In this document: piece after piece, positions 7,751-14,283 of the stretch
Layout: each line of letters opens with the position of its first letter
How positions within the stretch are numbered: position 1 is the first letter of the stretch
Source: Chloroflexota bacterium
Lineage (GTDB): Bacteria > Chloroflexota > UBA6077 > SHYK01
DNA: 62,523 nucleotides
Assembly: GCA_035652535.1 (NCBI GenBank)
Contig: DASRDP010000010.1
Coordinates: 1-62,523 of the forward strand
Direction of reading: 5' to 3'
Program-made: the position numbers and the translations under genes
The notes under the pieces: model-generated
What the model was told of the DNA's origin: nothing
Database searches by the model: none
The model's input: the letters and a program-made list of their open reading frames with translations, nothing else

Positions 7751-9490
7751 GTGAGCCGGTGGCCGTTGCCGGCGGTGACCCGCCGGCGTTTTCTCCAGCT
7801 CGTGCCGGCGGCATTCGCGGCCGCCGCGTGCCAGCCACCGGCCATTTCCCAACCCCGCCCCGTGGGATCCGAGAGCTGGGAACAGCATCCCGGCGGGAGC
7901 ATAACGCTCGCGGTGGAGGCCGAGCCCCAAACACTCGTTCCCTCCGTCGGCGGGCCTCGATCGGATGCGGCACAGCACCTCTTCAACCTCGTGCACCAGT
8001 CGCTGGCTACCTACGATGACCAGGGTCGTCCCTCCCCCCGGGTAGCGCTCAGCCTTCCATCCCTCGAGAACGGCACGTGGAAGGTCTTCGACGACGGCAC
8101 CATGGAGACTGTCTGGACACTTCGGGACGACGTTCAGTGGCACGACGGCGAGCCACTGACCGCGGACGATGTCGTTTTCAGCTGGCGCGTGTTCAACGAC
8201 GCGGCCGTTCCGATCGGGTCGCGCAAGGTCGCACGCCTCATCGACGCGATCGATGCGCCCGATTCGCACACGGTGGTGATGCACTGGCGCGCGCGCTACG
8301 CGTTCGCCGATCAGATCACCGGAAACGATCTCACCCTGCTCCCGAGCCACCTCCTGGAGGCGTCGTATGACCTCAGGCGAGAGCAGCTTGCCGCGCACCC
8401 CTACTGGCGCGCGCAGTTCGTCGGTGTGGGACCGTTCCGCGTCGATCAATGGAGCAACGGGACGATCCGCCTCACGGCCTTCGACGCCTATTTTCTTGGG
8501 CGTCCGGTCCTCAACGCCATCACCGTTCGGTTTCTGCCCGACAGTAGTGCGGCGGTCGCGGCGCTCCTCGCTGGGGGAATTGACGTCATGCTTCCGCGCC
8601 GTGCCGTTCCGGGCGTGGTTCTGACCCTGCAGCAGCGCTGGCAGGATGCCCGAGACGGGACGTCGGCGGTGCTCCCGGGATATAGCTGGCTCTTTCTTGC
8701 GCCCCAGTTCAGTGGACCGCAGCCGGAGGACCTGCTGGACCTTCGGGTACGACAGGCCCTCGATTGCTCCCTGGATCGCGCTGCCATCGCGGAGGCGGTC
8801 ACGGGCGACCGCTCGCTGGCGTCCGATCTCTGGGTCCCATCTGCTGATCCGCAGTACGCGCTGCTCGGTCCGGACTACACGCCCACGGAGTACGACCCAG
8901 CGCGCGCACGGGATCTCTTTCGCGAGGCCGGATGGCGGCGGGAGTCCGCCGACGACGTCCTCGTGAAGCAGGGCAGGCGATTCGAGATCGAGCTGACCAC
9001 GCCCCCAGAGTTCGAGCGCACGAGCACCGCCGTGGCAGAGTTCTGGCGGGAGGCTGGGGTCGCGGTCCAGGTCAGCATCCTGAATCGTCCCGCACTCACG
9101 GACCGCGCCGGGCGCGCCGCCTATACCGGCGTGGAGCTGGCCGGCGCAACCCCCAGCCTGGCGCTGATCGAAGGGCGACTCAGCAGCTCCAACATTCCGC
9201 TTGCCGAGAACCAGTGGGTCGGAGCGAATCGCGGTCACTACGCCAGCACGAAGATCGACGAGCTGCTCGACCGCGTCTGGACGACCATCGACCCACAGGC
9301 GCGTGGCGCCGCCGAGCGCGAGCTTACCGCGCAGATCGCGTCTGAGCTTCCCATCCTGGGACTCCTGTTCTACCCGGCCATGGCGGCTGTTCGTTCGAAC
9401 GTCCGTGGAGTCAAATGGCCGCGCGCGCAAACGCCGACAGGATGGGCGTCGGCGACCTGGAACGCCCACGAGTGGAGCGCGGCTAGCTGA
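7751..9490 (+). CDS. ABC transporter substrate-binding lipoprotein, family 5 (peptide/nickel type)
   Basis: About 579 residues. The N-terminus carries a twin-arginine-like TRRRFLQL followed by a hydrophobic stretch ending in AAAC, a lipobox, so it is probably exported by Tat and lipidated. The mature part has SBP_bac_5 hallmarks: DGTMETVWTLRDDVQWHDG, then LTADDVVFSW and later VGPFRVDQW, with a C-terminal AELPILGL-like segment. Family members bind oligopeptides, nickel or other solutes. No permease or ATPase gene is adjacent, so it is an orphan binding protein. GTG 7751 is preferred (GAAGGAG just upstream, Tat motif near the N-terminus); ATG 7703 is an alternative but sits in the palindrome. 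It overlaps the convergent polB end by 8 bp. Confidence 0.85.
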   Translation: MSRWPLPAVTRRRFLQLVPAAFAAAACQPPAISQPRPVGSESWEQHPGGSITLAVEAEPQTLVPSVGGPRSDAAQHLFNLVHQSLATYDDQGRPSPRVALSLPSLENGTWKVFDDGTMETVWTLRDDVQWHDGEPLTADDVVFSWRVFNDAAVPIGSRKVARLIDAIDAPDSHTVVMHWRARYAFADQITGNDLTLLPSHLLEASYDLRREQLAAHPYWRAQFVGVGPFRVDQWSNGTIRLTAFDAYFLGRPVLNAITVRFLPDSSAAVAALLAGGIDVMLPRRAVPGVVLTLQQRWQDARDGTSAVLPGYSWLFLAPQFSGPQPEDLLDLRVRQALDCSLDRAAIAEAVTGDRSLASDLWVPSADPQYALLGPDYTPTEYDPARARDLFREAGWRRESADDVLVKQGRRFEIELTTPPEFERTSTAVAEFWREAGVAVQVSILNRPALTDRAGRAAYTGVELAGATPSLALIEGRLSSSNIPLAENQWVGANRGHYASTKIDELLDRVWTTIDPQARGAAERELTAQIASELPILGLLFYPAMAAVRSNVRGVKWPRAQTPTGWASATWNAHEWSAAS

Positions 9491-11951
9491 GGGCAGGCTC
9501 CTGTTGGTTCTCGGCCGCGAGCCCCTCGGCCTCTGCTTCATCGGCGGTGTCTGGTTCCCGATCCGTCACGCATAGGGGCTGGATGGTCGCGAGCGGGGCG
9601 TCAAAAAGGCCTTCGGATTCGCTGAACAGGGCCTCCAGATCCTCCGGTCGAAATGCCTTGTCCAGCCGCTGACAGCAGGTGGTTCGCAGTCGATTGATGT
9701 AGAAGTCGGCATCGTAGTCCGGTTCCCCGCCGGGTTGAAGGAGCTTCTTGGCCCCTTTCGCCTGGTAGTAGCGGATGCGCTCTCCAGGCCGCCATCCCGT
9801 GTGACCGGCCGCGAGATACACCTCGTACGGCTCCTCCCGTCGCTTGGCCTTGGCATACGTCTGCGGGGCCTTGGTGAGGGGCATCGAGACGCAGAGGGCC
9901 GCCGCGGGGACGCGGTGCGCCCGAAGATCGGCGCACGTCGAACGGTACAGCGCGCGGACCGACTCGAATTCGCCGCGAAGGACGTGCATGATGACCCGCG
10001 ACAGGAACTCCTGAATGAACGGCTCGGTCTTGGCCGAACGAAATGCAACGCCAACCAGCCGAACGGGGTCGCGCTGGCGGAATCCTTGCTGCGCTTCCGA
10101 GTCGTAGTCGAGGAGCGCGTAGTTCTTTTCGAGATAGCTGTACATCGCCCGATAGCGGCCGTCGTGCTCCACTTGAATCCCCGTCGGCATTGCTCGGGCC
10201 ACGTCCTCGATGAGGGCAAGCTCATCGTCGTGGGTCCAGGTACCGCCTTGTGGATGCGGCGGCATGCTGAACAGCACGCCGTCCGTATCGGCCTCGATGA
10301 GCGTCGCCCCGCGGGTCCGAAGCTCGTCCAGAAGGAGGCGGAGGATCTCTCGCCCACGCGCCGTGACGCGCTCGGCGGCCGCGGTATCGCAGAACAGGGC
10401 GAAGCTGGCGCCGAGGCTCCCGTAGAACGAGTTGATGAGCACCTTCATGGCGGACTGCATCGCGTCGTGGAAGGCGCGCGCGTCGTCCGCGCCTTCGCCG
10501 CGCGCAGCCCGCTTGTGCATAAGCCGTAGCGTGGTCAGCTCCTCTAACAGCCCGAGGAACGCGCCGATTTCGTCGTTTGCGGGCCCGATGCGGTCGGCCA
10601 GCATGATGCTCGGGTAAAGGGATGCGACGTCCGCCTTGACCACGTTGCCGATGATTCCCGTCGTAAAGAGGCCGGTCGCCCCGCCCGCGAAGGTGCCGGA
10701 CGCGCGCCCGATCGGAAGCGAGTGGCCCGCGGCGACGTAGGCGCGCACCAAGAGCGGCTCGATCAGCCCTTGGCCGGTCCCTGCCGTGGCGATGCGCTCG
10801 AACGGCTTGGGCACCATGGACGCGAGGGCGAAGGCGGGCGCGAGCAGAATCTGCGAGAGCCGGTCCACCTCTTCCACGTCGTCCATGCAGTACCGCCGCA
10901 CTCGCTCGGGGTCCTGCTGGAAGACGTTCCAGATCTCGGCCCCATCGACGTACTCCCGGTCGTCCATCGCGATGCCGAAATAGCGCGCGGCCTCCTTCAA
11001 GCCGCTGCTGCGAAGATCACGCTGGATGGCGCTGTAACGGCGCGTAGCATGGAGGGTGTCGATGATCTCGCGCCCCGCGAGGCTGTAGCGCGTGAACGGT
11101 TGGTTCGCGGCGCCGATCTTCACGGTGTCTCGGCTCTCGAAGAACTCGGAACCGTCGCGTCCAAGAGGGAGGGGCACTCCGAGGGTCTGGGCACGCTTGA
11201 TCAAGAACCGAATGTCGAAGTCGAAAATGTTGTGGTTCTCGATGACGTCCGGATCCCGCTCGCGGATGATGGCGACCAGTCGCCGAATCAGCTCGGCTTC
11301 GTCCATCTCCGCCGTGTCGAGAAGCATCGCAAAGCCGTCCGAATCCTTGATCGAGACCATGAAGATCCGGTCTTGCCCAACGCCGAGTCCGGTGGTCTCG
11401 AAATCGAACTGCAGGCGGCGGATGTCGGCATAGGTCATTCCCCCGTAGTACGTCCGCCCCGTGATCGTGAGGTACTGCTCAACCACCGGACGAACGTACA
11501 TCAGCTCCGAGATCGGCTCTTCTAGGCTGCCATCGTCGTGGCGCCGATGGATCGTGTCCACGATCTGCTGCTCGACCGCGTCGAGCTGGTCAGTCAAGAC
11601 GAGGTACTGGAAGGTGTTTGCGCCGCGGAGTCGGACCAGGCCTACAGACCCATCCGGCACAGACGGGGTGGATTCGAGCGCTTCTGGACCGAGGTCGACA
11701 ACCGGGAGGCCGTCCGCCAGCTCTCGGTGCGCGAGGAAGAACCAGTTGGGGAACCGCTCCTCTTCGCAGACGACCTCACCACCCACTCGCCGCCACACGC
11801 GTGCCTTGCCGTGGCGACTGGCGGCGACGGAAACGATCCCCGGCGTGTCGTCGCGACCGAAGAGGAGGGATCGCCGGTCGGAGCCCGTTGTCGGGACAGC
11901 CTCGGACAGGCGCTCAGCCGTCATCCCGCGCTCATATTCGGGACGGGCCAT
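9483..11951 (-). CDS. polB: Family B DNA polymerase
   Basis: About 822 residues with both 3'-5' exonuclease and polymerase domains. Numbering from a TTG nine nt upstream: Exo I is DFETTGL (186-192), Exo II NHNIFDFD (242-249), Exo III YCMDD (357-361); polymerase motif A is DVASLYPSIM (444-453), motif B KVLINSFYGSLG (506-517) and motif C EADTDGV (556-562). All catalytic acids are present, so it should be an active proofreading enzyme. In bacteria such polymerases usually serve repair, restart or translesion synthesis beside PolC/DnaE. It is somewhat longer than E. coli Pol II (783 residues). ATG 11951 is chosen over TTG 11960. It has no replication neighbours here. Confidence 0.93.
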   Translation of the reverse strand: MARPEYERGMTAERLSEAVPTTGSDRRSLLFGRDDTPGIVSVAASRHGKARVWRRVGGEVVCEEERFPNWFFLAHRELADGLPVVDLGPEALESTPSVPDGSVGLVRLRGANTFQYLVLTDQLDAVEQQIVDTIHRRHDDGSLEEPISELMYVRPVVEQYLTITGRTYYGGMTYADIRRLQFDFETTGLGVGQDRIFMVSIKDSDGFAMLLDTAEMDEAELIRRLVAIIRERDPDVIENHNIFDFDIRFLIKRAQTLGVPLPLGRDGSEFFESRDTVKIGAANQPFTRYSLAGREIIDTLHATRRYSAIQRDLRSSGLKEAARYFGIAMDDREYVDGAEIWNVFQQDPERVRRYCMDDVEEVDRLSQILLAPAFALASMVPKPFERIATAGTGQGLIEPLLVRAYVAAGHSLPIGRASGTFAGGATGLFTTGIIGNVVKADVASLYPSIMLADRIGPANDEIGAFLGLLEELTTLRLMHKRAARGEGADDARAFHDAMQSAMKVLINSFYGSLGASFALFCDTAAAERVTARGREILRLLLDELRTRGATLIEADTDGVLFSMPPHPQGGTWTHDDELALIEDVARAMPTGIQVEHDGRYRAMYSYLEKNYALLDYDSEAQQGFRQRDPVRLVGVAFRSAKTEPFIQEFLSRVIMHVLRGEFESVRALYRSTCADLRAHRVPAAALCVSMPLTKAPQTYAKAKRREEPYEVYLAAGHTGWRPGERIRYYQAKGAKKLLQPGGEPDYDADFYINRLRTTCCQRLDKAFRPEDLEALFSESEGLFDAPLATIQPLCVTDREPDTADEAEAEGLAAENQQEPALS

Positions 11952-12014
11952 GACCGTCAACAGGATTGGGAAGCGCGCGCGACAGTGGTGATGTCTCCCG
12001 TGCTGATCTCATGC

Positions 12015-12377
12015 TCAGGATACGAGTTGCTCGATGACGCGGAGTAGCTGGAGCGGGCTGAACGGTTTGGTCAGATACTCGTCTGCCCCCGCGGCGAACC
12101 CCGCCTCGCGCTCGGACGGCTGCGCGGCGCTGGTGAGCATGACCACGGCGGTCGATCGCAGGTCCTCGTCGCTCTTGATTCGCCGGCAGACTTCGAGCCC
12201 GTCCATCACCGGCATCTGAACGTCGAGGAGGGCGAGCTTCGGTCGCTCTGATCGCGCAAGCGCGAGCGCCTCACCGCCGTCACTCGCTTCGATGATCTCG
12301 TAGTCCTCACTGGCGAGGGTGGCCGCGACCAGGAGACGCAGGCTCGGCTCGTCGTCAGCTATGAGCAGCTTGTGCAT
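12015..12377 (-). CDS. Single-domain response regulator
   Basis: 120-residue receiver with DDE at 8-10, phospho-acceptor Asp52 (LALLDVQMP), switch Thr/Ser (MLTSA, 80-84) and Lys104 (LTKPFSP). No output domain. It lies 24 nt downstream of the class III cyclase and appears to be the third gene of an operon with the GntR-receiver-receiver protein. A CheY-like role in controlling the cyclase or relaying phosphate in this operon is a reasonable guess, but no kinase is adjacent. Confidence 0.88.
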   Translation of the reverse strand: MHKLLIADDEPSLRLLVAATLASEDYEIIEASDGGEALALARSERPKLALLDVQMPVMDGLEVCRRIKSDEDLRSTAVVMLTSAAQPSEREAGFAAGADEYLTKPFSPLQLLRVIEQLVS

Positions 12378-12401: not shown

Positions 12402-13142
12402 TCACCCTGTGCTCCCAAACCGCAGCCGATAGAGCGAGAGGGCCCCGACGCGCCCTCGAATGGGCCGCGTTCCCAAGAGATCGGCGGAAACCTGGTCGGA
12501 CACCGCGTGGTACGCCGATTCCGACAGCAGGACTTCACTGGCCCCGGCGACCTGTGCGAGGCGCGCCGCCACGTTGACGGGGTCGCCAATGATTCCCAGC
12601 TCGCACCGCTCGGGGGGACCCATCGTCCCAACGACGACGCGGCCGGAGCACAGCGCCACGCCAACCTCGAGGCGGAACCCCCACTCGTTGGCCCGCCGGC
12701 GATTGAGCCCCTCATTGGCGCCAATAACGCCGATCGCCGCGGCGAGGGCACGCGATGAGTGATCGGGCGCGTCAGCCCACGCGCCGAAGGTGGCGAAGAG
12801 TCCGTCTCCGAGGAACTTCTCCACGGTGCCGCCGCACCGCACCACCGCCCGCACGACCACCCGAAAGTGCTCATTCAGGACGGTCAGCAGTTGATCTGGG
12901 TCGGATTCGAGCCGTTCCGCGATCGCCGTGAAACCGCGGATATCGGAGAAGAGAATGGTCGACTCGCGAACGCGCGTTTCCGGAAGCGATGGCGCGAACA
13001 CGTCCAGCGGAACGGGGACCAGCCGCTCGTACGCGCGCCGAAGCGCATTCATCCGCGCGACATCGCGGGCGAAAAGCAGCGTTTGGGCGTGCGACGTCCC
13101 TCCGGAGTCGCCGTACGACACGCGGTTGTCGGGCTTGGCCAC
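12402..13142 (-). CDS. Class III adenylate/guanylate cyclase
   Basis: 246 residues with a short N-terminal region and one CHD catalytic domain (about 58-240). Metal-binding aspartates are Asp67 (FSDIRGF) and Asp113 (LGDGLFA); a Lys109 in VEKFLGDG fits the purine-recognition lysine of adenylate cyclases, with Asp187 and the transition-state pair Asn190 and Arg194 in GDPVNVAARL. So the active site is complete and probably makes cAMP as a homodimer. There is no membrane segment or HAMP. Start is GTG 13142 with GGAGAGG about 4 nt upstream. It lies between the GntR-REC-REC gene (51 nt) and a receiver (24 nt), which suggests two-component control of nucleotide synthesis. Confidence 0.88.
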   Translation of the reverse strand: MAKPDNRVSYGDSGGTSHAQTLLFARDVARMNALRRAYERLVPVPLDVFAPSLPETRVRESTILFSDIRGFTAIAERLESDPDQLLTVLNEHFRVVVRAVVRCGGTVEKFLGDGLFATFGAWADAPDHSSRALAAAIGVIGANEGLNRRRANEWGFRLEVGVALCSGRVVVGTMGPPERCELGIIGDPVNVAARLAQVAGASEVLLSESAYHAVSDQVSADLLGTRPIRGRVGALSLYRLRFGSTG

Positions 13143-13193: not shown

Positions 13194-14195
13194 TCATACC
13201 ATGGAAGTCGCTGGCATCGGAGAGCGGCGCAGCTCGAGCGACGCGCGGACGCCTTCGCGGTCGAACGGCTTCGTGAGCACGGTAAAAGCCCCCCCGAGAC
13301 GGATGACGTCCTCGGGAAATGCCGTGACGATGACGACGGCCGTAGACGGGTTGGCTTCAGCAATCGTAGCTGCCAGCTCGGGGCCGCCTCCCGGCATGCG
13401 CACGTCGAGAAAGATGTGGCTGAAGGGATGCTCCCGTAACGCGAGCAATGCTTGCCCTCCGGTCGACGCCTCCGACACGTCGTATCCGAAGCGCTCGATA
13501 TACCCCCGCAGGAGCTGACGGACGTCTGGGTCGTCATCCACCACCAGCACCTTGTGGGGATGGCGACCGGAGATCGCCTGCCGCCGATTCTCCGCTCGCC
13601 CGCGACCGAGGAGGCCGGCATGCTCGATGACGGACTCGATGTGGTGACGCTGAAAGGGCTTCGTCACGATCAGCACCGGACACTCCGGGCGTCCATGGAG
13701 GTCTCTGAGATCCTCAGGGAACGCGGTCACCGCGGCGATAGGCAGGTTAGGCCACCGCTTGCTCACAGTGCGAATGAATTCCACGCCGTCCGTTGTGGAC
13801 GGCATTCGTACGTCGCTCAGGACGAGGCCGATCCGGGGGTTCCTCTCGAGGGCTGCGATGCCTGCTTCGGGTCCATTGGCTTCAATGACGCCGCAGCCAC
13901 AATCTTTGATGTGCTCCCGGAGGAGCGTACGGACCGCGGCCTCATCGTCGACCACGAGGACTTCGGTACTTGGTCCGGTTTGAACGAAGGTGCCCCGTCC
14001 ATGCTGGAGCGAGATGAACCCGTCGTCGGCAAGGGCCGTCAGCGCATGGCGGAGGGTCATCGGAGCCACCCCGAAGGCGACGCTCAGCTCGGCATGGCTC
14101 GGGAGCTGTTGGCCAGGCGGCCACACCTCATCGATGATCTTGCGGCGGATCTCTTCGTAGACTCGCCGGGATCGAGGCCCCAATCGACGAGGCAC
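13194..14195 (-). CDS. GntR-type winged helix fused to two receiver domains
   Basis: 333 residues. Residues 8-72 form a GntR-family winged helix (VYEEIRRKI, PGQQLPSHAEL, VAPMTLRHAL, GRGTFV). Instead of the usual FCD or UTRA ligand domain, two complete receivers follow: REC1 (78-190; Asp128 in LSDVRMP, Lys179) and REC2 (215-322; Asp264 in FLDVRMP, Lys309). All phosphorylation residues are present in both. Most response regulators put the receiver first and the DNA-binding domain last, so this order is unusual. It heads an apparent operon with a cyclase and a receiver, and repeated CGTAACA motifs lie directly upstream, suggesting autoregulation. The protein is probably a phosphorylation-controlled transcription factor. 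Confidence 0.85.
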   Translation of the reverse strand: MPRRLGPRSRRVYEEIRRKIIDEVWPPGQQLPSHAELSVAFGVAPMTLRHALTALADDGFISLQHGRGTFVQTGPSTEVLVVDDEAAVRTLLREHIKDCGCGVIEANGPEAGIAALERNPRIGLVLSDVRMPSTTDGVEFIRTVSKRWPNLPIAAVTAFPEDLRDLHGRPECPVLIVTKPFQRHHIESVIEHAGLLGRGRAENRRQAISGRHPHKVLVVDDDPDVRQLLRGYIERFGYDVSEASTGGQALLALREHPFSHIFLDVRMPGGGPELAATIAEANPSTAVVIVTAFPEDVIRLGGAFTVLTKPFDREGVRASLELRRSPMPATSMV

Positions 14196-14226
14196 CGGCC
14201 ATCCCCCCGCACAAGGGTCGCACTAT

Positions 14227-14243
14227 CGTAACATAACGTAACA
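14227..14243 (-). promoter_or_regulatory. Tandem heptamer, candidate operator upstream of the GntR-receiver gene
   Basis: CGTAACA occurs twice, at 14227-14233 and 14237-14243, with a 10-bp period, i.e. one helical turn, 32 nt before the gene start. A related GTAAC occurs again near 14264. Same-face direct repeats suit cooperative binding by a response regulator. AT content is locally high. No footprint evidence; inferred from repetition and position. Confidence 0.4.
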
Positions 14244-14283
14244 GAACGCTAGTATGGTAGCAGGTAACGCCGCGCGTTGCTCG

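Follow-up and report, generated by a model that had tools for sequence, protein, structure and literature searches.

How could a repressor head from a family built around metabolite sensing come under the control of receiver domains? This question is raised by the gene at 13194..14195 (minus strand, GTG start, 333 aa) of the 62,523-nucleotide Chloroflexota stretch analyzed here, hereafter referred to as the window. GntR proteins constitute a large repressor family known for sensing metabolites, with a single effector domain each. The GntR-REC-REC design of the window protein, in which two receivers (REC) follow the GntR head, appears to put such a repressor-type head under histidine-kinase control. 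As described below, this architecture is real, rare, and recurrent.

Domain composition of the window protein

Pfam analysis of the 333-aa protein identified a GntR domain (PF00392, residues 9-71, 67 bits against a gathering cut-off of 27, E = 1e-18), which places the protein in the GntR family, and two stretches matching Response_reg (PF00072, 125 bits, E = 2e-36). With such E values the matches are not due to chance, and they bear out an earlier note that had described a GntR winged helix joined to two receivers. The GC3 of the gene (0.75) fits a real gene. The host genome is a draft of 4.45 Mb in 168 contigs.

The GntR/HutC-like winged helix is encoded at 13983..14171 (minus strand), and its closest solved structures are FadR and NagR/YvoA; the NCBIfam HutC model scored 56 bits, under its cut-off. 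Pfam matched no UTRA effector domain in the window protein, the C-terminal part being occupied by the receivers. The earlier view that receivers replace the effector domain thus stands, although its wording, according to which "both ligand positions" were replaced, was loose for proteins with one such domain. An N-terminal DNA-binding domain is usual for GntR proteins and inverted for response regulators.

We have obtained an AlphaFold (AF2) model of the window protein, built from 11 family sequences. The individual domains were well formed, with only ~6 residues linking the wing to REC1. The REC1-REC2 linker (13560..13619, minus strand; aa 193-212) was predicted to be flexible, with pLDDT < 50 at aa 198-212, and the domain arrangement in the model is unreliable (pTM 0.49).

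The dre sites of NagR and its base-reading residues Arg38 and Arg48 have been described (PMC4333415). The window head has Ala and Pro at these two positions, and both arginines are likewise absent from the head of a relative found in genome G199. Hence, the reading mode of these two heads must differ from that of NagR.

Distribution of the GntR-REC family

The three-domain order was also found in a genome of the same bacterial family (G001, 46-47% full-length identity) and in two genomes of the same order (G014 and G007, 37-40% identity). That full-length relatives occur in three further genera of Chloroflexota rules out a joining error in sequencing or assembly. Relatives with a single receiver behind the GntR head were present in G024, G014, G040, G009, G010, G230, and G199. 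In the large genome samples, eight candidates were scored per genome, so that the counts are lower bounds: among 400 Chloroflexota genomes sampled, at least 11 matched the GntR-REC profile, the match in G004 being confined to the receiver, whereas none of 398 Bacillota genomes sampled around a Rossellomorea genome did. The assignment of the first sample to Chloroflexota is inferred from a sample drawn around an Anaerolineales genome (G400), in which identical matching contigs appeared with identical coordinates. The two-receiver forms detected came from four genera, all of one Chloroflexota order. The domain order had been claimed to be rare, and these counts agree with the claim. The architecture is not named in the literature that we searched, the main reviews of response-regulator outputs lying outside that search. 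A plasmid match (H2, 95% coverage) was rejected as a GntR-REC protein, being part of a long multidomain response-regulator protein, and a scan of the genome_contigs set returned nothing beyond ordinary receivers.

The window genome contains five GntR domains. Its contig C4 carries tandem paralogues, a 197-aa GntR-REC and a 329-aa GntR-REC-REC protein (L037:5093-7403, corresponding to G000:C4:65092-67402), with eroded receivers in the longer gene; the frame of paralogue G000b (C4:66425-67390) is open despite the loss of the phospho-Asp in both receivers (Ser and Asn). A lone Crp-type HTH gene sits between the two C4 paralogues.

Active sites and switch residue of the receivers

REC1 (13620..13967, minus strand; aa 77-192) carries D83, D84, D128, T157, and K179, and REC2 (13230..13559, minus strand; aa 213-322) carries D220, D221, D264, T291, and K309. 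Both therefore display the acidic pair, Asp, Thr/Ser, and Lys of response regulators. This alignment reading confirmed that all catalytic residues had been kept, as noted earlier, and supported that both receivers are active, as far as their residues can tell. The T-to-K segment of REC2 (beta4-beta5) spans 18 residues versus 22. The five catalytic residues are present in REC2 of G001 and G014a as well, and the phospho-Asp is replaced by Ser in REC1 of G014b and by Glu in REC2 of G007. Given such dead receivers in part of the relatives, not every member of the family can depend on phosphorylation.

In classical response regulators, an aromatic residue three positions before the Lys (K-3) acts as the switch, as exemplified by Tyr106 of CheY. 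This position is occupied by Ile in REC1 (I176) and by Val in REC2 (V306), and family receivers have Val, Ile, or Thr there in 20 of 21 cases, with no Y-T switch aromatic. Among the other receivers of the window genome, 60 of 73 have Tyr, Phe, or Trp and 13 of 73 are non-aromatic (20/21 versus 13/73 non-aromatic, Fisher P = 7e-11, relatedness ignored).

The beta4 motif of the window receivers is VTAFPED. When compared to FATGUY receivers, both RECs presented VTAFP and the non-aromatic K-3 residue, and the literal F-A-T-G-U-Y motif was not matched. The top NCBIfam model for the window protein was that of PhyR (PRK09191, 98.6 bits, under the cut-off of 240). Together, the VTAFPED motif and the PhyR model point to receivers of a PhyR/FATGUY-like type. 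According to one study, which leaves open what the FATGUY motif means, such receivers probably work without relying on allosteric control of the alpha4-beta5-alpha5 face (PMC9981736). A FATGUY receiver takes phosphate from several kinases (PMC5964349).

Receiver history and possible exchange of DNA-binding heads

We have analyzed 94 receiver domains (the 21 family members and the 73 others of the window genome) in a tree based on ~117 alignment columns, in which deep forks are weak. A single branch with support 99/95 split the family receivers from all others. The REC2 domains of the window protein, G001, G007, G014, and G000b formed one group (98/80), with the REC1 domains placed elsewhere. 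REC1 and REC2 are thus two old, separate lineages in this tree, and the idea of REC2 being a recent copy of REC1 was rejected. As REC2 domains group across genera and REC1 domains fall elsewhere, the two-receiver form must predate the split of two bacterial families. The receiver of the 197-aa paralogue is of the REC2 type, and either receiver type can occur alone behind a GntR head.

Related C-terminal receivers were also found in the same inverted order with an N-terminal HTH_17 (excisionase-type) head in G027 and G028, which belong to another family of the class (L051:4022-4690 and L052:2776-3525; the G028 HTH_17 match was slightly under cut-off). These forms suggest that DNA-binding heads are swapped among related receivers. 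The receiver-only relative of G004 (L041:4759-10001), close to REC1 and devoid of a GntR head, adjoins a chemosensory-type cluster consisting of CheW, CheR, CheW, MCP, and CheA-like genes (gene names read by eye).

Gene neighbors and candidate kinases

The window gene itself has no kinase gene as a neighbor. The next gene downstream, after a 51-nt gap, encodes a class III nucleotidyl cyclase (12402..13142, minus strand; PF00211, 63.5 bits) and is followed, after 24 nt, by a gene for a single-domain REC with the classical Tyr at K-3 (12015..12377, minus strand; PF00072, 97.7 bits). Each of the two could possibly be an operon partner of the window gene. The idea that the window gene, the cyclase gene, and the lone REC gene form a conserved operon was rejected because this arrangement was absent near the relatives, and the neighborhoods of GntR-REC genes were not conserved among the relatives compared. 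Downstream of these signaling genes, positions 9483-11960 (minus strand) encode a diverged family-B DNA polymerase, for which the best NCBIfam models are those of DNA polymerase II, well under cut-off.

Kinase genes do adjoin some of the relatives. The GntR-REC gene of G040 precedes the gene of a hybrid kinase (dCache-HAMP-PAS-HisKA-REC) and then that of a lone REC; the one of G230 precedes a HisKA kinase gene. In the window genome, the gene of a many-PAS histidine kinase (domains read by eye) is oriented divergently to the two C4 paralogues. Based on the HisKA kinases adjoining the G040 and G230 relatives and on the kinase adjoining the paralogues of the same genome, HisKA kinases are the likelier partners of GntR-REC proteins. 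An HWE/HisKA_2 partner, an idea arising from the likeness to PhyR, was not supported, the kinases beside the relatives being of the HisKA type. The genome encodes a sole HisKA_2 kinase, and this one is followed by a REC regulator of its own, the tail of which, judged by eye, is ANTAR-like.

Downstream of the two-REC genes of G014 and G007 (L035:5178-6032 and L036:6879-7889) lie genes whose predicted secreted products resemble each other, that of L036 having no Pfam match. They are a possible common target.

Candidate DNA targets

The 88-nt gap upstream of the window gene (14196..14283, minus strand) is a candidate promoter/operator, containing ACTAGC and the repeat GTTACGTTATGTTACG (14227-14242). 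No palindromic operator was recognized in front of the gene, and the GTTAC repeat recurs once elsewhere in the genome, in inexact form. Of 13 family genes, 7 have the CTAGC motif in the 120 nt that precede them, versus 17 of 113 controls (P = 0.003, motif chosen post hoc).

The start codon of the G199 relative is preceded, at positions -21 to -4, by an 18-bp palindrome, TAGTGGTCTAGACCACTA (L049:5414-5431). The palindrome core TGGTCTAGACCA (L049:5417-5428), which we take to be the DasR/NagR dre site, has its only perfect copy in the 1.6 Mb G199 genome at this place. The palindrome resembles dre, the operator type of the HutC-family regulators NagR and DasR. This putative operator link is indirect, since the window and G199 heads both lack the base-reading arginines of NagR.

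Proposed mechanism and alternative explanations

As established for NagR, DasR, and FadR, GntR heads contact DNA in dimeric form, the dimer being held by the effector domain. We find it rather probable that the window protein is a GntR-headed response regulator whose dimeric binding to operators is set by separable receivers phosphorylated by HisKA kinases. The HutC-like winged helix would bind its operator as a dimer, with its own promoter probably among the targets, resulting in autoregulation. The two receivers, the only evident dimerization modules in the protein, would take over from the usual metabolite-binding domain the tasks of holding the dimer and moving the heads. Their phosphorylation by HisKA-type kinases would alter the dimer geometry and, through it, the affinity for the operator. 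This reading is supported by the domains and active-site residues, the relatives of the same order, the two receiver groups, the kinase genes next to relatives and paralogues, the G199 palindrome, and the CTAGC counts. Against it count the missing kinase neighbor, the variable neighborhoods, the absent arginines, the dead receivers of some relatives, and the unreliable domain arrangement of the model. We infer both DNA binding and phosphorylation, with repression as the more likely sign of regulation. The two independent phospho-inputs put forward in the earlier note are plausible judging from the sequence, each receiver being an input of its own. Separable modules fit the data because the REC1 and REC2 lineages are separate and either kind stands alone behind a GntR head, and we prefer two inputs over one input plus a PleD-like adaptor.

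A PleD-like role is conceivable in view of the missing Y-T switch residue and of close relatives in which one or both receivers no longer have the phospho-Asp. REC1 would then be the sole regulated input and REC2 an adaptor giving the dimer interface, its active site being a remnant. The best fold matches, PleD and 3luf/3mf4, are indeed two-receiver proteins, although such matches mainly reflect any REC-REC pair. The shortened beta4-beta5 segment of REC2, the Glu in place of Asp in G007 REC2, and the higher divergence of REC2 relative to REC1 in G001 and G007 also speak for an adaptor. We nevertheless regard it as unlikely, given the intact REC2 catalytic residues of the window protein, G001, and G014a and the GntR protein that carries a REC2-type receiver alone (G000c).

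Lower still is the probability that the window protein is a constitutive DNA binder or a decaying paralogue, with receivers serving for docking or dimerization without phosphorylation. The loss of the phospho-Asp in G000b, whose frame is still open, and in G014b would be compatible with it, as would the switch residue missing from 20 of 21 family receivers. However, the window protein retains every catalytic residue in both receivers, and FATGUY-type receivers without the switch do get phosphorylated (PMC9981736, PMC5964349). The fusion of two genes by an assembly or sequencing error has a negligible probability and is already refuted: apart from the draft status of the genome (168 contigs), no support was found for it, the frame is uninterrupted, and the order is repeated in G001, G014, and G007 with 37-47% full-length identity.

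Going beyond the reading of two separable inputs that we favor, we would tentatively suggest, with more doubt than confidence, that a Chloroflexota lineage combines FATGUY-like, Y-T-switchless receivers with swappable heads (GntR, HTH_17), and that its two-REC proteins integrate two kinase signals in an undescribed switch. With the effector domain exchanged for receivers, in this case two in a single protein, the GntR repressor family has apparently been wired to kinase signaling. Since each receiver type is also found by itself and natural copies with dead receivers exist, the GntR-REC family is a useful comparative set. It lends itself to studying the way in which a GntR head is moved by a receiver devoid of the Y-T switch, and the question of which logic a receiver pair follows (AND gate, OR gate, or adaptor pair).

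Comparison with known systems

The window protein shares with the GntR/HutC repressors (NagR/YvoA, DasR, and HutC; FadR) the N-terminal winged-helix head with its GRGTFV wing and, in one relative (G199), a dre-like operator at the own promoter. It differs from them in having two receivers instead of UTRA or FCD and in the absence of both base-reading arginines. As in PhyR, the effector is N-terminal and the REC part C-terminal, and the VTAFP beta4 motif and the non-aromatic switch position resemble those of PhyR and FATGUY-type receivers (MrrA, SdrG, CckA-REC, and CpdR). Unlike PhyR, its output is a GntR winged helix rather than an ECF-sigma-like domain, it has two receivers, and the sole HisKA_2 kinase of its genome adjoins another regulator. 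Two tandem receivers on one output, together with the top fold matches, liken the protein to PleD (REC-REC-GGDEF), whereas its output is DNA-binding and N-terminal and the active site of its second receiver is kept. Finally, it combines REC and winged helix as the OmpR/PhoB-type response regulators do, but in the reversed order, with Pfam GntR in place of Trans_reg_C, without the Y-T switch residue, and with two RECs.
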